From assembly GCA_903918755.1 (NCBI GenBank), contig CAIXFN010000029.1:1-39642 (forward strand): a DNA stretch of 39,642 nt, in the 5' to 3' direction. Origin of the DNA: an uncultured Pedosphaera sp. (GTDB lineage Bacteria > Verrucomicrobiota > Verrucomicrobiia > Limisphaerales > Pedosphaeraceae). Positions 27,723-38,765 of the stretch are shown one piece after another (the first letter of the stretch is position 1; each line of letters begins with the position of its first letter). The notes beneath the pieces were generated by a model. It was given only the letters and a program-made list of their open reading frames with translations. It ran no database searches and was not told the origin of the DNA. Made by a program: the position numbers and the translations under genes.

Positions 27723-27767
27723 CAGTAGCTCGGCGAATCGCAGTTCCGCAGCACCACGCGTTGCAAT

Positions 27768-27885
27768 AGCGCCAAAGGCGCGTCCCAAGACCAGCCTGGG
27801 GCAAAGCGTTCCTCGCGACGCCCCAGGAACCCTCACCAAAAATTCCCCAAGCGCTGAAAGTGCGAACCAATGCCCTCGCCTCGGC
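27768..27885 (+). repeat. repeat A, copy 1
   Basis: About 118 bases, starting 46 bases after the hydrolase stop. It consists of three hairpins in a row. GCGCC-AAA-GGCGC lies at 27769-27781. CCTGGGGC (27795-27802) pairs with GCCCCAGG (27820-27827). GCGCT-GAA-AGTGC lies at 27851-27863. Copies 2 and 3 show the same order. Confidence 0.85.
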
Positions 27886-27946
27886 GCCCCGTCCACCACG
27901 TCCACAATGACCACCAAGATCCCATTTCGCAGCCCCGCGCCACGCC

Positions 27947-28116
27947 CTTTTCCCCAACCTCAAAGGGGTTGCGCCCTCCAGCCCAGCGGTTGGCTCGACG
28001 CAGGAGAGCCTACCCTGGGTAGCCCCCCAAAAAAGTCCCTCAACCCGAAGCGGGTTGTGCCAAGCTTGCCGCTACAACCAAATGCCCAACGCATTCACAT
28101 CTCCCCGCTTCCCCAG
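27947..28116 (+). repeat. repeat B, copy 1
   Basis: About 170 bases, with close to 90% identity by eye to copy 2. Its hairpins are CAACC/GGTTG (27955-27971), the near-palindrome CTACCC-T-GGGTAG (28010-28022), CAACCCG-AAG-CGGGTTG (28041-28057) and AATGC/GCATT (28081-28095). Confidence 0.85.
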
Positions 28117-28219
28117 CGGTGGAGCGTGGCGTTCACGCCGCTTCGACTCACCAAAACCAAGCGGGCCCGGCTTTTTCAGCGCCCTCGCCAGGTGGACGCT
28201 GAAGCGGGCGGAAGCCCGC
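28105..28219 (+). repeat. hairpin-rich linker found only between B1 and A2
   Basis: This segment has no second copy in the window but is built in the same style. CCGC/GCGG lies at 28105-28119, GGCG-TTCA-CGCC at 28128-28139, and GCGGGC-GGAA-GCCCGC at 28204-28219, a 6-bp stem with a GNRA-type loop. It accounts for the longer spacing of the first A-to-A interval. It slightly overlaps the end of repeat B copy 1. Confidence 0.6.
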
Positions 28220-28250
28220 GCCCCGTCACCCAATTGCACGGGTCTAGATA

Positions 28251-28370
28251 AGCGCCAAAGGCGCGCCCCAATACAAGCCTGGGGCAAAGCGTCGCCCCCG
28301 CGACGCCCCGGGAACTCGCACCCAAAAAAATCCCCAAGCGCTGAAAGTGCGCCCCAATCCCCTCGCCCAG
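28251..28370 (+). repeat. repeat A, copy 2
   Basis: The order is as in copy 1. GCGCC-AAA-GGCGC lies at 28252-28264. CCTGGGGC (28278-28285) pairs with GCCCCGGG (28305-28312), where an A-to-G change turns one pair into U-G. GCGCT-GAA-AGTGC lies at 28338-28350. Confidence 0.85.
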
Positions 28371-28414
28371 CCCCTTCCACCCCATCCACCCAGCCTGATT
28401 CCCCGCCCTGCCGC

Positions 28415-28584
28415 CGCCCTTTCCCCAACCTCAAAGGGGTTGCGCCCTCCAGCCCAGCGGTTGGCTCGACGCAGGAGAACCTACCCTGGGTAGCTCCAAA
28501 AAAAGTCCCTCAACCCGAAGCGGGTTGTGCCAAGCTTGCCGCTACAACCGAATGCCAAACGCATTCGCAACTCCTCACTTCCCC
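28415..28584 (+). repeat. repeat B, copy 2
   Basis: It matches copy 1 over its whole length with scattered substitutions and one short length change near 28495. CAACCCG-AAG-CGGGTTG lies at 28511-28527. The last hairpin is longer than in copy 1, CGAATGC-CAAAC-GCATTCG. It runs directly into repeat A copy 3. Confidence 0.85.
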
Positions 28585-28702
28585 AGCGCCAAAGGCGCGC
28601 CCCAATACCAGCCTGGGGCAAAGCGCTCCTAGCGACGCCCCAGGAACCCTCACCCAAAAACTTCACCAAGCGCTGAAGGTGCGCCCCAATCCCCTCGCCC
28701 CG
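28585..28702 (+). repeat. repeat A, copy 3
   Basis: GCGCC-AAA-GGCGC lies at 28586-28598. CCTGGGGC (28612-28619) pairs with GCCCCAGG (28637-28644). The third hairpin is GCGCT-GAA-GGTGC (28670-28682), with a U-G pair replacing U-A of the other copies. Confidence 0.85.
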
Positions 28703-29136
28703 GCAACTTGGCCGGTTTCCTGCTCCCCGAACCTGCCATCCGACCGGACCTCCGTCCTGACCGGCGTCAATCTCCCGCGTCCAGTCCCCATGCTGTCCGG
28801 CTGTAAGCGAAGACGGAAGCTGCCAGCGGAATCGGAAGCTCGTGAACGGAACAGGTGGCTCATGCCAAACACCAAAGCCTCCCAGCAAATGCGGTCCATC
28901 ACGGCGCATCACCACTATTTCGCCATCAAAACCCCACCACATAAAATGCAATTTCCTTCCCATTCTGATTCCCTCGGTTTCTGAGATTCCCGCGCATACG
29001 ATTAACCTCCTTCCCATCCTCCCTTGCAAACCATTGGATGACAATAAGTTCCCGTATCATAATCGGAGAGTTACTCCCTTCCAACACCCCGGATCCGCAA
29101 GTCATAAATAAAAATCTAAAAACTCGTACTTTTTCT

Positions 29137-29165
29137 TTGACACGATCTAACTCCTTCTCTAAGGT
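29137..29165 (+). promoter_or_regulatory. promoter of the secreted protein-RHS operon
   Basis: TTGACA (29137-29142) is a perfect -35. After 17 bases comes TAAGGT (29160-29165), in a locally AT-rich stretch. The start would be near 29172, giving a leader of about 80 bases. Confidence 0.5.
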
Positions 29166-29209
29166 AGGTGCCGTAATACGCACAACCATTGGATTGTGCT
29201 CCACAAGGA

Positions 29210-29230
29210 GGCCCCGGAAAAGGAGGGGCC
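29210..29230 (+). promoter_or_regulatory. leader hairpin with ribosome-site-like loop
   Basis: GGCCCC (29210-29215) and GGGGCC (29225-29230) form a perfect 6-bp stem around the loop GGAAAAGGA. An AAGGAGG at 29205-29211 overlaps the left arm. The loop and right arm carry a second purine run (AAGGAGGGG, 29220-29228), 25 bases before the ATG at 29254. This is too far for normal use, so either the hairpin brings it closer or it regulates access. Confidence 0.4.
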
Positions 29231-29253
29231 ACAAAACAAGAGATATTGCTGTT

Positions 29254-31803: not shown

Positions 31804-34800
31804 ATCATTTGCGAAAGATCAGTGCCATGCTTACGAATCCTTTTCCGTCTTTGGCGAAAACGAGGAAGTCGCTGATCGAATCTTGTCGCCAGTTCCATTT
31901 TTTCTGCCGGTGGCAACGCCAAATAACTTGGCTTTTTGTGCTGGCCTTCGTTGGATTCCTGCTGCAGTCGCAACGCACGATGGCGGGCGTTCCGGCCCCC
32001 GTCACTGGGCCACAACAATGCGGCGCGGCTCTCGTGCAGTCTTCCACCACCGCTGCCACCCGGCATTTGACCTATTACTCGCCCTTCGTTCCTGACTCGG
32101 CACACCCCTCGACGAACCGGATAATGTATCGCAATCGGCGATTCGAAACGACCATTGACATCAAATACACCAACTCGGCACCCGCCAATCCTCTTTCCCT
32201 CGCCGAACATTATCACCTGGTCACCTGGTCGCCGAGCCGCTGGACGAACAATTTCGGCGAATTCATTAACGTGGCCCTGGAGGAAGCTGTTTCCACCAAT
32301 TGGGGATCTTTTAGCCAGGATCAGTCGCGCTCGGGACACTGTGAAACGGTTTACACCAATGGTATCGGTTGGGACAACCCAGACTGCGTTAACAATTCAT
32401 CTTGCGCCGACCTGATTGCCAATCCCTATCCGCTTTGCGGGACCTGGATACCCAGCTCCCCTGAATTGGCCACCCTCGATTGCCAGTGGGACGATCCGTC
32501 CCAGTATGGCGGCGTGCTCACTCATTTTCACATGGTGGGGACTATGACCACCAACTCAACGACGATCACGATCACTGGCTCCGGTAATGTTGGGGTCACG
32601 TCGTACAGCCTGACCCAAACAACTGTAGAAACCCTTTCATGGGAGATGAACGTTCGCGATTTAATTGCCCAGGTCCGTAGCGATCTCTCCCTCCAGAGTT
32701 ATGGCCCGTATTCGGATACACCCGGATATGCCAGTTTGAAGGTGAGTGACGACGAGACTTATGTGGATGCCACGGGTTACCGATATCGCATCCGGCTCCC
32801 GCAAACCGATCCTCGTCTGGAGTACGACGTAAAAATGAAGGAGCTCATTCACCTACCAAACGGCTCAGTGGCCGTGCGCAAGAAGCATGAGCTGATTGCG
32901 GGCACCGGAACCGTCGCCTATGGGCATGATCACTACGCCCGACTTCCGCAGGCATCGCCCGGCAAGAACAATACGGAATTCGTCACCGTAAGCGTCGTGG
33001 GGGTCACCGTCTTGCCCAAGATGCCGGGTTTGCCCGGCACAATGGCGGGAGCCGGAGCTGGCGGCGGCGGAATCGGAGGCAGCTGGCTCGGGGGCGGAGG
33101 GTGCTCCTCATGCGGCGGTGCCGGCCAAAATATGTTCACCGGCGAGGATGGACTGGCGGCGAGCAGCGGCGGACTCGCTTTCTCCTTGCGGGCCGGTAGT
33201 TCTGGGGGCGGGTGGAACGGCATGGGCCTGCATCTTTCGATCAGCTCGTTGGACAATGGCACGGTGGAACCGGAAGATTATGACGGCGACTTTAACGACG
33301 GACTTTACCCAGACTTTCCGTCAAATGACGGCATCGGAGTGGAGCGCGCATTACAGGGGCCGCTGGATGGTTTCGGATTTCGGCACAAAGGAGTCACCAA
33401 TCTGATTTCCAGCATTACCTCGATTACCGTGTCGAATGAGTGGGGTTGGGATACCAATTACAATATTTTGCCGCCGGCGCTTTTTCAGAAAATGACCGGC
33501 CGGCAGGTCATCCGCTATTTCGTACCGGGCGCCTCCCTGCCTTTCGTTACCTGGACGGTCAACCCGCCGGCCAGCGGTGCGGTGCTGGTGACCCGAACCC
33601 TGGTGGACGGGTCCATCGATAACTATTCCTACTCGATTGCGGTTCCCAATACTATTCGCCTGACCATCAACGACCAGCGGGTGGAGAGACATGTTTGGGA
33701 CAGCAATTACGACGACTCAAATCAACGTTCCGAGGTTTCCACAATTGAAGATACGAACGGCGCAATTTTATATCAGGTGACGCGGGTTTATCAGCAATTC
33801 CCCACTTGGAATCCCTACAACTCTCCCGAGCTCGGACTCACCGAGGCTTTGGTCACCGAAACCGTTGGCGCCGGTCCAAACGCCCTCACCACCCGGTATA
33901 TTTATGATTCCACCGGCCCTGCCCGCGGCAGTTTCCTCCCGCTCATTGAGACGATCCATCCCGATGGCTCGTGGGAATACTATCAATACCTGACGTACAA
34001 TGCGGACGCGGTGGAAGTGGTGACGGACATTTACTCGGGGTTGGGGGATACCGCCCCTCCCGCCCCGGTCCCCGACGCGCCTCCCAGCGCGGCCAATTGC
34101 CGCCATGTCGAGTATTCCTATGCTTCAGTTGATACTCTGGGCACCGGGGCGGACGGGGGAGGCATGCAGCCGGATACCGCCGAGCCCTACACGCCCCGAA
34201 CCGTCACCGAATACTGGCGGGGTCATCCGATTTCCAAACGCTTCGTAATTATTCGTTCGCAGCAGCGCATCGAATACGAATGCGAAGACCCCAACTCCAC
34301 TGGCCCCGATGACACGCGTGGCCGGCTCTTCATCACCACAACGCAACTCGATGCTTCCCATCGCCCCACCAGCATTACGCATCCCGATGGCACCATCACC
34401 ACCTATACCTACGGAGTGACCGGGCCGGAGCCAGTGACCGAGTCCCATGGCGCGCCAGGAACCGGGGGAACGGTGAGCGATGGCACGCGAACGACAACCG
34501 TCCGCAACGCCGCCGATGAATTGCAATCCCTCACCACCATCGACATCTTGTCGGGGCAAACGATCGCGTCGGAAACCTATTCCAACCCCGATTCCTTTCT
34601 GCGCTATCGCACCGCCACCTTCCTGGACGGCACTTCCGAATCCCGCACCTTCGACTGCTGCGGTCTCTCCACCTGGACCGACCGCGATGGCGTGACCACC
34701 AGCTATGGGTATGACGGGTTGCATCGGGTCAATGCGGTTTCCCGTTTGGGGATCACGATCCTGTCCACCCTGGATGCCGCCGGCAACACGCTGGCTCTCA

Positions 34801-37800
34801 CCCGGGTGGCGGGAACGAACACCACCACCCTGCAATCCACCGCCTACGACCTCGGCGGCCGCATCACTGACACGTACAATGCCCTGGGCGGCCACACCGC
34901 CATCGCCGACGTCATCACGGGCGGGCGACGGGTCGTGACCACGACCCTGCCCGACCTCGGCACGCGCATCGAAACGTATTACTTGGACGGCTCTTTGAAA
35001 ACTTTGACCGGCACCGCGGTCTTCCCGGTGAAGTACACTTCGGACGTGGCTTTGCTCGACGGCCTTTATCGCCAATACACCATCACAACCAATCTAGACA
35101 GCTCATTTGCGGGCACGCCGGAGAGGGTTCAGCGCTTTCAGGACGCCCTGGGGCGACCGTACAAGACCATCTACCCGGACGCGAGTTTCAGTCAGTCGTT
35201 TTACAATGATTCAGGGAAGTTGTCCGGCCTGCGGGACGCGGACAACGTCATGACCCTATTCGATTACAACGCCCGAGGCGAGCAGGAATACACCACCACG
35301 GATGTGGGGGATGCCACCCACGCCCGGAATAGCCAGCGCGATCCGACGGGTATAGATCGGATCCGCCGGGTCGTGTCGGATGTCTATAATCATCCCACCC
35401 ACGGCTGGGTGCGCCGCTCCCGATCGTACGTCTGGAATCAGTTGGGGGTGGACAATGCCCTGTTGACCGCCGACTTGGAGACCAGCCTGGATGGATTGCA
35501 TTCCTGGTCCACAAGCTTCGGGCGAACGGTGGAGACCCTGACCGTCTTTGGCACGGGCGGAGCCCGGACCCAAACCACCATCGCGCCGGACCTTTCCCGC
35601 ACCATCAGCCAATACCAGAATGGTCGGTTGGTCTCCGTCACGCGCCAGGATTCCGGCGGCAACCCCATTGGCCAGCTAACCTATGGGTACGACAGCGCCG
35701 GACGGGTGGCCACGGTGACCGACTCCCGAACCTCAGGCACCACCACCATGACCTACACCGTCGCGGATCAGGTTGCCACCCTCACCACCCCGGCGCCGGG
35801 CCCGGGGCAAGCGGCACAGGTGGTCACCCATGCGTATGACAACCAGGGCCGGCAAACGAGTTCCGTGCTGCCGGACGGGAGCACGATCCAGCGGGACTTT
35901 CTCCCCACCGGCTTGGTCCAGGACACCCACGGTCCCCTCACCTTCCCGGTGCTGTACGATTACGATGCCCAGGGGCGGCTCCGGCACATGACCACCTGGC
36001 AAAACTATACCAATGCCACCGGGGCGGCGGTCACGGAATGGATTTACGGCGACCCCGCCCACCGCGGCTTGCTCTCCCAGAAAAAGTATGCCGACGGCAC
36101 TGGCGTAAATTACACCTATACCGCCGGTGGTCGGCTGGCCACCCGGGTGTGGGCGCGGAACCTCACGACTTCGTACACCTACAACGACGCGGGAGATCTG
36201 GCCACCACCAGCTACTCCGATGGCGGCGCCACGCCGTCCGCCACGTACAGCTACGACCGGAAAGGCCAGTTGGCCACCGTGGCCCGGGGCGCCGTTACCA
36301 CCACCTTCGGCTACAACGACGCCGGGGAATTGCTCTCCGAAAGCTACGTCGGCGGGACCTTGAACGGCTTTTCCGTGGCCAACGGCTATGACTCCCTCCT
36401 CCGTCGGAACAGCCTGACCCTGAAAAATGGGGCGGGAACCACGCTGGCCGCATCGGCGTACAGCTATGACCCGGCCTCCCGCCTCGCGACCGTCTCCAGC
36501 GGCAACGAAACGGCCACGTACAGCTACTTCCCCAATTCCTCCCTGGTGAACCAAATTACGCTTCAGGAAAGCGGCACGCTGCGGTTGACCCGGTCCCACA
36601 CCTACGATAGCTTAAACCGGCTCAGCGGGGTGGTGTCCACGCCCGCGAGCGGCCCGGTGGTGAGCGACAATTATCAATACAACCAGCTCAATGAGCGCAC
36701 CTCGGCCACCCTGGCCGATGGCAGCCACTGGGACTACCAGTACGACTCCAAGGGCGAGGTCACGTCTGGCCGGAAAGTGTGGAGCGACGGCACGCCGGTG
36801 GCGGGGGAACAGTTTCAGTATGCGTTTGATGACATCGGCAACCGCACCTCCAGCCTGGCTGGCGGCGACCAGACCGGCGGCAATCTGCGTTCCGCCACCT
36901 ACGCGGTCAACAGTCTGAACGAATACACCAGCCGCACCGTACCTGGCGCGGTGGACTTGCTGGGCTCAGCGGCCACCAACGCCACGGTGACGGTGAACAA
37001 CCAACCCACCACACGGCACGGAACCTTTTACCGCGCCCAGCTCGCCGTCACGAACAACTCCACCTCCGTCCGGCTATCCGCGACCAACCTGGCGGTCCTG
37101 AACCGTCCCGGCACCACGGACCTGCTCGGCACCAAGACCGGAACGGTGTTCGTCCCAAAAACCCCGGAACTTTTCACCCACGACCTCGACGGCAACCTGC
37201 TCCAGGACGGTCGTTGGCAATACACCTGGGACGGCGAAAACCGGTTGGTAGCCTTGCAGGCTCGGGGAGCGAACGAAGGCGCGCAAACGCTCAACTTCGA
37301 ATACGATTACGCCGGCCGACGCGTGCGCAAAACCGTCTGGACCACCAACGGCACGGGCGTATCCCTCACCGCCGACACCAAATTCCTCTACGACGGCTGG
37401 AACCTGATCGCGGAATTGAACGCCACCGACAATTCCGTCGCGCGCAGTTTCGTCTGGGGCTCGGACTTGAGCGGCAGCATTCAAGGGGCCGGCGGCGTGG
37501 GCGGATTGCTGGCGGCCCGCCCCGGCGGCGGCACCGCCCCCCAATTCGCCTGCTACGACGGCAACGGCAACATCACCGCCTTCGTGGACGCCACCACCGG
37601 CCAGGTCGCCAGCCAATTTGAGTACGGCCCCTTCGGCGAGCCCTTGCGGATCGACACCACTTCGCTGCGCTTCGGCTTTTCCACTAAATACGCGGATCCG
37701 GAAACCGGGTGGTTGTATTACGGCTACCGGTATTATTCTCCGGGCACGGGAAGGTGGACAGGTAGAGACCCCATCGAGGAAAGCGGCGGACTAAATCTAT

Positions 37801-38765
37801 ACGGATTCGCTTACAACAACCCACTCTGTTTCTCCGACTACCTCGGTCGTGAGGGTTACTGGAGCGACGTTGGGACGACGTTACAAGGCATGGGACAGGG
37901 TGCTTGGAACGTCGGAGGTGGAATCTTGTCGTTCGGCCGAGACATGGGTCTTGGTCTCGTGACGTTGCCCGTTCTTGTAATGCCGGATACTTGGGTTCCA
38001 AAGTGCGTCTGCGATGGGCTGTCGAGCCACAAAGGAAATCCACTCACTCAACTGGCAGGAACTGATTACGGCGCCATTAAGGTGTTCGGCACCGTGATGG
38101 CATCCCCGGCATTGGCGGTCTATTCAGTTGGAGACAACGCTGCTTCTGCTGTTGGGAATGCTTGGAACGGAAATCTGCAAGCTGCAGGGCAGAACTTCGG
38201 TGAGGGTCTGACTACTGCTGGACTTCTGGCCACGCCATTCGCAAGACCAAATCCGCTGGTCGGCGGATACCAGGGCGTTGGTAATTGGCAGCAGACCATT
38301 TACAACCTCAATCAAGCCATTCCTAAGTCGATTAGACCCAAGTTGCCCATTTCGATCAACAACCCTGGAGGACTCTACTACCAGCGTTGGGCTACCAAAG
38401 TATTGCAAGAGCAATTTGGTGCTTGGGAGGTCGCAAAAGACGTGACGGTGCAACCGTTCAACCGTTCTGGCGGATTCGGAAAGTCATTCGAGTTTGATGC
38501 TGTCTGCCGTCGCAGCAAAGGTTCCTACGCTTTCTATGAATTCAAAGGCTCCCCTTCTGCGACGCTGTCAAGACCGAATCAGATGCGTGGCCACCCCTTG
38601 TTTCAGGAGTTTGGCGGACAAATCGCTGGCGAAGAGGCAGTCAAAATCGACCTTGGCCCCGGACAAATAATTCCGCCCACGGCACCATTAGTCTTTTACA
38701 ATCAGTTTGGAGTCGGCCAATTCTTCGTGCCTCTCACAACCGGCAGCATCGCGGATTACCACTGA
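31800..38765 (+). CDS. giant RHS/YD-repeat protein with nuclease-like C-terminal tip
   Basis: A protein of 2321 residues. A long N-terminal region with one helix (about 43-56, TWLFVLAFVGFLLQ) directs export. A Gly-rich, Cys-containing segment follows near residues 415-445 (GGGGCSSCGG). YD repeats then fill the middle, for example YSYDPASRLATV and FGYNDAGELL. The RHS core ends with the conserved DPETGWLYYGYRYYSPGTGR (from 1966), WTGRDPIEESGGLNLYGFAY and NNP near 2009. The last 310 residues differ. A Gly/Ala-rich pre-toxin part comes first, then YQRWATKVLQEQFG, FEFDAVC with Asp2233 and YEFKGS with Glu2247-x-Lys2249, the order of a PD-(D/E)xK nuclease. RHS shells enclose such tips and release them into rival cells. 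Family assignment of the toxin is inference; the RHS part is firm. Confidence 0.93.
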   Translation: MNHLRKISAMLTNPFPSLAKTRKSLIESCRQFHFFCRWQRQITWLFVLAFVGFLLQSQRTMAGVPAPVTGPQQCGAALVQSSTTAATRHLTYYSPFVPDSAHPSTNRIMYRNRRFETTIDIKYTNSAPANPLSLAEHYHLVTWSPSRWTNNFGEFINVALEEAVSTNWGSFSQDQSRSGHCETVYTNGIGWDNPDCVNNSSCADLIANPYPLCGTWIPSSPELATLDCQWDDPSQYGGVLTHFHMVGTMTTNSTTITITGSGNVGVTSYSLTQTTVETLSWEMNVRDLIAQVRSDLSLQSYGPYSDTPGYASLKVSDDETYVDATGYRYRIRLPQTDPRLEYDVKMKELIHLPNGSVAVRKKHELIAGTGTVAYGHDHYARLPQASPGKNNTEFVTVSVVGVTVLPKMPGLPGTMAGAGAGGGGIGGSWLGGGGCSSCGGAGQNMFTGEDGLAASSGGLAFSLRAGSSGGGWNGMGLHLSISSLDNGTVEPEDYDGDFNDGLYPDFPSNDGIGVERALQGPLDGFGFRHKGVTNLISSITSITVSNEWGWDTNYNILPPALFQKMTGRQVIRYFVPGASLPFVTWTVNPPASGAVLVTRTLVDGSIDNYSYSIAVPNTIRLTINDQRVERHVWDSNYDDSNQRSEVSTIEDTNGAILYQVTRVYQQFPTWNPYNSPELGLTEALVTETVGAGPNALTTRYIYDSTGPARGSFLPLIETIHPDGSWEYYQYLTYNADAVEVVTDIYSGLGDTAPPAPVPDAPPSAANCRHVEYSYASVDTLGTGADGGGMQPDTAEPYTPRTVTEYWRGHPISKRFVIIRSQQRIEYECEDPNSTGPDDTRGRLFITTTQLDASHRPTSITHPDGTITTYTYGVTGPEPVTESHGAPGTGGTVSDGTRTTTVRNAADELQSLTTIDILSGQTIASETYSNPDSFLRYRTATFLDGTSESRTFDCCGLSTWTDRDGVTTSYGYDGLHRVNAVSRLGITILSTLDAAGNTLALTRVAGTNTTTLQSTAYDLGGRITDTYNALGGHTAIADVITGGRRVVTTTLPDLGTRIETYYLDGSLKTLTGTAVFPVKYTSDVALLDGLYRQYTITTNLDSSFAGTPERVQRFQDALGRPYKTIYPDASFSQSFYNDSGKLSGLRDADNVMTLFDYNARGEQEYTTTDVGDATHARNSQRDPTGIDRIRRVVSDVYNHPTHGWVRRSRSYVWNQLGVDNALLTADLETSLDGLHSWSTSFGRTVETLTVFGTGGARTQTTIAPDLSRTISQYQNGRLVSVTRQDSGGNPIGQLTYGYDSAGRVATVTDSRTSGTTTMTYTVADQVATLTTPAPGPGQAAQVVTHAYDNQGRQTSSVLPDGSTIQRDFLPTGLVQDTHGPLTFPVLYDYDAQGRLRHMTTWQNYTNATGAAVTEWIYGDPAHRGLLSQKKYADGTGVNYTYTAGGRLATRVWARNLTTSYTYNDAGDLATTSYSDGGATPSATYSYDRKGQLATVARGAVTTTFGYNDAGELLSESYVGGTLNGFSVANGYDSLLRRNSLTLKNGAGTTLAASAYSYDPASRLATVSSGNETATYSYFPNSSLVNQITLQESGTLRLTRSHTYDSLNRLSGVVSTPASGPVVSDNYQYNQLNERTSATLADGSHWDYQYDSKGEVTSGRKVWSDGTPVAGEQFQYAFDDIGNRTSSLAGGDQTGGNLRSATYAVNSLNEYTSRTVPGAVDLLGSAATNATVTVNNQPTTRHGTFYRAQLAVTNNSTSVRLSATNLAVLNRPGTTDLLGTKTGTVFVPKTPELFTHDLDGNLLQDGRWQYTWDGENRLVALQARGANEGAQTLNFEYDYAGRRVRKTVWTTNGTGVSLTADTKFLYDGWNLIAELNATDNSVARSFVWGSDLSGSIQGAGGVGGLLAARPGGGTAPQFACYDGNGNITAFVDATTGQVASQFEYGPFGEPLRIDTTSLRFGFSTKYADPETGWLYYGYRYYSPGTGRWTGRDPIEESGGLNLYGFAYNNPLCFSDYLGREGYWSDVGTTLQGMGQGAWNVGGGILSFGRDMGLGLVTLPVLVMPDTWVPKCVCDGLSSHKGNPLTQLAGTDYGAIKVFGTVMASPALAVYSVGDNAASAVGNAWNGNLQAAGQNFGEGLTTAGLLATPFARPNPLVGGYQGVGNWQQTIYNLNQAIPKSIRPKLPISINNPGGLYYQRWATKVLQEQFGAWEVAKDVTVQPFNRSGGFGKSFEFDAVCRRSKGSYAFYEFKGSPSATLSRPNQMRGHPLFQEFGGQIAGEEAVKIDLGPGQIIPPTAPLVFYNQFGVGQFFVPLTTGSIADYH

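Follow-up and report, generated by a model that had tools for sequence, protein, structure and literature searches.

Organization of the repeat array

The window, a stretch of 39,642 nt (contig CAIXFN010000029.1) from the draft genome of an uncultured Pedosphaera sp., contains an intergenic space at 27723–29253. A gene finder based on codon use calls no gene there, in agreement with the gene-free kilobase of an earlier sequence-only reading. A possible longer gene start lies inside this interval at 29038, and a mechanical ORF of 309 aa (28055–28984) is without a Pfam match. An RHS-repeat protein of 2275 aa is encoded downstream of the array at 31938–38765.

The kilobase is a pile-up of two folded, apparently mobile DNA repeat families, A and B, and a third, small transposon-like one, C. 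Three copies of A alternate with two of B, all on the + strand between 27766 and 28688; this alternation, noticed in the sequence-only reading, was borne out by direct repeats and by covariance models built from dispersed copies (R1 for B, R2 for A). By direct repeats the A copies start at 27768, 28251 and 28585, and the model places them at 27766–27869 (110.2 bits), 28249–28356 (99.7 bits) and 28583–28688 (103.1 bits). The B copies extend over 27939–28118 and 28410–28588 by direct repeats, and over 27954–28065 and 28425–28535 by the model (95.4 and 93.2 bits); they are annotated here at 27951–28068 and 28422–28538. A and B are built on the same plan, in which a unit of about 100 nt consists of h1, a long H2, an A-rich spacer and h3. 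In both families the 5′ foot of H2 is (T)AG before a stem that opens with CC. B copies 1 and 2 remain 92% alike for about 50 nt beyond the 3′ end of the B family (direct-repeat comparison), so part of the array is a local duplication. An extra small hairpin (AATGC/GCATT), seen by eye at 28081–28095 just 3′ of B copy 1, has a counterpart after B copy 2 and lies outside the B consensus. The array does not have the constant short repeats and unique spacers of a CRISPR, as had already been noted.

The segment at 28115–28238, first taken for a unique linker, is mostly a dispersed repeat, C (+ strand), which occurs at six places in the genome. BLAST gave six matches in the own genome, and there are six copies within 544 kb of its sequence: the window copy, L021:7780-7904, L022:4570-4445, L022:3883-3784, L023:556-679 and L024:5913-6028. 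An alignment of the six copies, read by eye, shows an element of about 130–170 nt bounded by terminal inverted repeats some 30 nt long. The window copy lacks the left terminal inverted repeat and on the right directly adjoins A copy 2. Small size and terminal inverted repeats are shared with MITEs and support C as a MITE-like element; no terminal inverted repeats were seen in A or B. No clear target-site duplication was read when the flanks of the C copies were compared.

Dispersed copies in the genome

Copies of the array elsewhere, for which the sequence-only reading had called, are abundant. When the array was used as a BLAST query, the 7.19 Mb draft genome gave 57 places, counting that in the window. 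At E ≤ 0.001 the covariance models matched at least 71 A units and at least 55 B units; these are lower bounds because 150 candidates were scored per model, and the A count takes in A-like units such as those on contig C41. All 79 copies examined (38 A, 35 B and 6 C) were intergenic, with less than 10% of the copy length overlapping predicted genes, as was so for 23% of random 106-nt segments. The expectation that copies always sit between genes was thus confirmed.

The orientation of neighbouring genes is mixed, the upstream gene being co-oriented for 18 of 33 A copies and 14 of 24 B copies. Of the 24 B copies, a single one has divergent genes on its two sides, compared with 19.5% of random intergenic segments (raw comparison). 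Cluster and pair counts were made on 117 listed copies (64 of the 71 A and 53 of the 55 B matches), of which 64 stand alone and 53 in clusters. All 17 listed pairs of A and B neighbours at most 600 nt apart share a strand, six of these pairs being in the window array, as do 37 of 39 neighbour pairs of all kinds. The order A before B recurs on C52, C15, C40, C2 and C101 with gaps of 16 to 72 nt. Among eight genomes of one family, matches range from 0 to 71 for A and from 7 to 55 for B. A clean empty site was sought in the same-genus genome G001. There the array is absent and the neighbourhood differs, another gene coming next after the upstream gene's ortholog.

Folding and covariation of A and B

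The + strand of the array folds better than its shuffles (MFE z −5.3; none of 20 as good), while folding of the − strand was no better than that of shuffles (z −0.3). Structures of A and B were taken from the consensus fold of alignments of dispersed copies, and that of A was then moved and lengthened manually to suit the longer alignment A4; this origin gives both an advantage in the slid control. In B (55 sequences from the own and other genomes), 17 of 28 pairs show double changes and 92.2% of cells are paired; none of 500 shuffles reached any of five measures, and slid-structure controls paired 32–48% of cells. In A (33 sequences), 6 of 21 pairs show double changes with 96.3% of cells paired, and none of 500 shuffles was as high. 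For A, a slide of +3 gave seven double-change pairs versus six, but paired 29.6% of cells versus 96.3% and had a covariation score of 0.024 versus 0.165. The sequence-only reading had staked itself on other copies and on covariation, and both exist.

H2 of B contains a conserved T-T mismatch (alignment columns 41 and 65). Read on the + strand, B has 73 G-T cells versus 16 A-C cells, 47 of the 73 at one conserved pair, and A has 46 versus 10, with 30 of the 46 at two pairs. This excess is at most a hint that the + strand is the folded strand, with which the folding of the whole array agrees.

Y1 transposase genes of the genome

Five Y1 transposase genes (PF01797) were found in the own genome. 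Three of them, on contigs C110, C41 and C28, encode proteins of about 150 aa with the motifs DH[VIT]H, WQ and Y...Q..HH. The C110 gene (55494–55949) has one B unit upstream (+) and three downstream (−), and the C41 gene (15065–15508) has one A-like unit before it and two after it, all + (model R2). The units on C41 score 46–63 bits, below the 100–110 bits of the A copies in the window, so that the C41 gene is no more than a candidate for the exact A transposase. The third gene (G000:C28:18991-19440; L066:6992-7450), subclass 1.2-like with a long tree branch, is adjoined by other small hairpins, seen by eye, which may be a third repeat family. Neither of the remaining two Y1 genes, both class 2-like, has a match to A or B beside it.

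Subclass 1.2 of TnpA_Y1 is described in the consulted parts of Quentin et al. 2018 (PMC6006769) as proteins of about 150 aa with DH[VI]H, WQ and Y---Q--HH, present in low copy number with dissimilar copies. The three genes resemble this subclass in motifs, length, low copy number and dissimilarity (two are 45 and 28% identical to the first), an assignment made by motif and not by the clustering of that paper. The C110 and C41 genes fit the motifs; in the C28 gene DHTH replaces DH[IV]H. A profile search ties all three to the solved IS200-type transposases 2fyx, 2xm3 and 2a6m. The best NCBIfam model is IS200/IS605, which two of the three satisfy, the C110 protein being just under the cut-off (52.8 vs 55 bits). 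In the same parts of PMC6006769, the entry of subclass 1.2 for REPs is 'no' and its members are mainly from Cyanobacteria and Bacteroidetes, whereas repeats flank the genes here, whose relatives come from records with titles that name Verrucomicrobia, Planctomycetes, Acidobacteria and other groups.

TnpA relatives in other genomes

One genome per species was scanned for relatives of these proteins, and the best 80 of 214 were used. Their record titles name Verrucomicrobia, Planctomycetes, Acidobacteria, Lentisphaerae, groups of Bacteroidetes and of Chloroflexi, Ignavibacteriae and others; most are MAGs, so that an isolated odd phylum may reflect misbinning. Among the best 80 of 214, WQ is present in 80, DHxH in 79 and Y...Q..HH in 75.

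B or A lies beside the gene in 28 of these best 80 of 214 relatives. With the profiles made from the own genome, B was found in 19 of the 20 best-matching relatives, with the nearest copy at a distance of 0–85 nt, and nine further relatives have A no more than 253 nt away from the gene. Among the Chloroflexi loci, the profiles matched beside the gene in L115 alone (weakly, 253 nt off), and L120 has one Rfam match. Repeat type (A, B or none) follows the clades of the TnpA tree, on which it requires three changes versus a shuffled mean of 24.9, and none of 200 shuffles was as low; 'none' denotes no profile match, so that a repeat of other type may be present, and the tree omits three of the 80 loci with stops in the gene (L102, L105 and L128).

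The flanks were also analysed without profiles in 83 loci (the 80 and three own). Hairpins number 1.6–1.8 per 200 nt beside the genes, a density about fourfold that at ≥1.8 kb (0.40), and 0.29 in shuffles. The 52 loci without A or B have 1.67 hairpins per 200-nt flank, with at least one hairpin on some side in 48 and on both sides in 37. Six of the 83 loci have no perfect short hairpin in the 200 nt to either side of the gene. The best inverted match of the 5′ flank is the own 3′ flank in 44 of 81 loci in the left–right test, and in the 52 loci without A or B the own flank is the best match inverted in 31 and in either orientation in 39. The flanks are not consistently inverted, the direct match being better in 41 of 81 loci and the inverted one in 39.

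The two most enriched 5-mers in the 300-nt flanks are AGCCC (74 of 83 near versus 25 of the 55 loci that supplied far windows) and TAGCC (62 of 83 versus 13 of 55), and TAGCC occurs within 200 nt of 50 of the best 80 of 214 subclass 1.2 genes. Twelve class 2-like control genes have 0.38 hairpins per 200-nt flank and TAGCC beside one; ten IS200-like control genes have 1.25 hairpins and TAGCC beside five. TAGCC as a tag exclusive to subclass 1.2 was rejected on the latter count. Since IS200-like controls also have hairpins and TAGCC, these alone do not separate subclass 1.2 from IS200; the features that do set it apart are the h1-H2-h3 layout and the dispersed families. IS200-like genes are many in genomes G021 and G039 (27 and 15 PF01797 matches), and the one examined in G039 has TAGCC on both sides.

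Co-occurrence, spread and strand bias

Across the 141 genomes sampled from the class, 35 of the 40 with subclass 1.2 carry A or B, versus 10 of the 101 without (Fisher p 8e-19, kinship ignored). The profile matched in 47 genomes, seven of which, with at most 65 bits, were counted as without subclass 1.2. The exceptions are the 10 genomes with A or B and no subclass 1.2 hit and the 5 of 40 with subclass 1.2 and neither repeat.

In genome G131 the 12 best-scoring B units occupy 12 sites and are near-identical, and a full inverted partner accompanies 10 of them; their flanks are unrelated at some sites and shared at others. B and A units in G131 and G090 (L246-L257, L259-L263) form inverted pairs with short spacers, like REPINs, and 15 nt separate the A units in five inverted pairs of G090. 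An amplified flanking repeat in Chryseobacterium was considered and rejected, as it has only two places in its genome.

In Planctomycetes bacterium Pan216, the unit adjacent to TnpA matches 44 places, many over H2 only. Of 14 one-strand dispersed clusters, 13 are on the lagging-strand template suggested by GC skew (p 0.002); only 2 of the 14 are in one replichore, and Fisher's test gives p 0.03, in one genome and with a test devised after the strands had been seen. Omitted from this count are five local tandem places beside the gene, five clusters with both strands represented, and a single-strand cluster located where the skew turns. In the own genome, all copies within a locus share a strand in 15 of 16 multi-copy cases (the TnpA locus itself is the sixteenth), and orientation opposes the local GC skew in 27 of 39 locus-family cases. 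The sign is opposite to that in Pan216, and replication-strand orientation was therefore not used as support.

Relation to Acido-Lenti-1

The 46-nt consensus of the Rfam family Acido-Lenti-1 (RF01687) is the reverse complement of h1 + TAG + H2. In the window RF01687 matches below its cut-off of 37 bits on the − strand of A copy 3 (28585–28644, h1 and H2, 26.1 bits) and of A copy 1 (27768–27827, 24.9 bits); among the matches listed there is none for A copy 2. Sixty TnpA loci (59 of the 80 relatives and L067 of the own genome) were scanned, and 27 matches at the cut-off were found in 11 loci. Twenty-five of the 27 lie within 600 nt of the TnpA gene, a span of 12.6% of the sequence (p 8e-21, with matches treated as independent). 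RF01687 is filed as an sRNA gene, whereas in the loci scanned here its matches are found beside TnpA subclass 1.2 genes.

Acido-Lenti-1 was predicted in 2010 in Acidobacteria and Lentisphaerae and rated 'probably' an RNA and probably not cis-regulatory (PMC2864571, Weinberg et al. 2010); the consulted excerpts of that paper state no function. According to excerpts of a 2026 paper (PMC13298647), it is still taken as a possible regulator. In the open-access literature on Acido-Lenti-1, on RAYT/TnpA_REP and on repeats in these phyla, none of the matches listed assigns repeats to subclass 1.2 or connects Acido-Lenti-1 with a transposase.

Discussion

The array is most likely mobile DNA, and its transposition is what we infer from the evidence above. 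A and B are very probably REP-like non-autonomous mobile repeats, each family served by its own Y1 transposase of subclass 1.2. The flanking of subclass 1.2 genes by A or B in several phyla suggests what spreads the repeats. B would be served by the TnpA at C110:55494-55949 and A-like repeats by that at C41:15065-15508. TnpA would bind the folded, TAG-bearing strand while it is single-stranded, probably as lagging-strand template, and would cut close to the hairpins, guided by the TAG foot in the way proposed for GTAG in REPs. It would then carry a single unit, or two in inverted arrangement, to another site. The order A-B-(C)-A-B-A in the window may have come about through insertion, duplication of an A-B unit on the spot and the addition of the MITE-like C.

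These steps are modelled on known systems. As described in excerpts of PMC8266576, E. coli TnpA_REP cleaves single-stranded REP and requires the GTAG motif, and IS200/IS605 enzymes pick their sites via guide bases 5′ of a hairpin; by analogy, the TAG foot and the subclass 1.2 TnpA may play the same role here. A and B share with the REP, BIME and REPIN elements and their RAYT (TnpA_REP, class 2) the dispersed intergenic hairpins and clusters, the inverted pairs of units (in G131 and G090), the short tag 5′ of a hairpin, and a Y1 transposase gene with members of its own dispersed family of repeats on its flanks. However, a REP is one palindrome of 20–50 nt with the foot GTAG (or GTRG), whereas A and B are three-hairpin units of about 100 nt with the foot (T)AG before CC, and RAYTs are class 2 with Y---NP, whereas the present transposases are class 1 with Y...Q..HH. 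Because tag, unit size and transposase class differ, we file A and B as a REP-like variant and not as REP/RAYT.

Of the two possibilities left side by side in the sequence-only reading, REP/MITE-like hairpin elements are supported, REP-like for A and B and MITE-like for C, and a modular structured RNA is not. Such an RNA, non-coding or cis-regulatory and transcribed from the + strand, would account for the + strand folding energy, the covariation in A and B and the excess of G-T over A-C cells, and Rfam does file a related h1 + H2 module, though on the other strand, as an RNA. We consider it very unlikely: a single DNA strand that folds would be expected to show covariation and G-T tolerance just as much, no Rfam family reaches threshold in the whole window, orientation to genes is not fixed as a cis-regulatory element would have it, and the units occur alone, in differing clusters and on both sides of transposase genes. 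Another reading is that the repeats are no REP-like system but solo ends of classical IS200/IS605 elements left after gene loss. Subclass 1.1 shares with this system the HUH/Y1 transposase and hairpins beside the gene, the best NCBIfam model is IS200/IS605, and the IS200-like controls are flanked by hairpins too. But subclass 1.1, whose Y motif has no HH, is given W[TS] and numerous near-identical copies in table 1 of PMC6006769, whereas here WQ and Y...Q..HH are found and three dissimilar genes stand against at least 71 and at least 55 repeats, which moreover occur in tandem or inverted pairs; we consider this reading unlikely.

The strictly intergenic placement, the pairing kept in diverged copies and the apparent scarcity of B between divergent genes could also point to domesticated elements of chromosome architecture or mRNA ends, kept for a host function with the TnpA link as a relic. 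Copy numbers that vary so widely among eight genomes of one family, together with mixed gene orientation, argue against host function, and we hold this highly improbable. Plain local duplication of GC-rich spacer DNA explains that B copies 1 and 2 are alike also beyond the family ends; as an account of the repeats it retains practically no probability and is refuted by the dispersed copies, with 57 places in the own genome, copies across a class and TnpA flanking in other phyla.

Beyond this genome, we lean towards a wider reading of the REP-like system, in which TAG-tagged repeats of three hairpins, together with subclass 1.2, make up a third, so far unrecognised REP-like superfamily, present at least in Verrucomicrobia, Planctomycetes, Acidobacteria, Lentisphaerae and Bacteroidetes, which inserts via the lagging-strand template and explains Acido-Lenti-1. 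If this is true, the Acido-Lenti-1 'RNA' is mobile DNA and not a small RNA, and a testable reading is offered for this predicted RNA. A transposase group listed without repeat partners would gain a set of DNA partners, and REP-type repeats would be extended to genomes for whose intergenic DNA of this kind no account was found.
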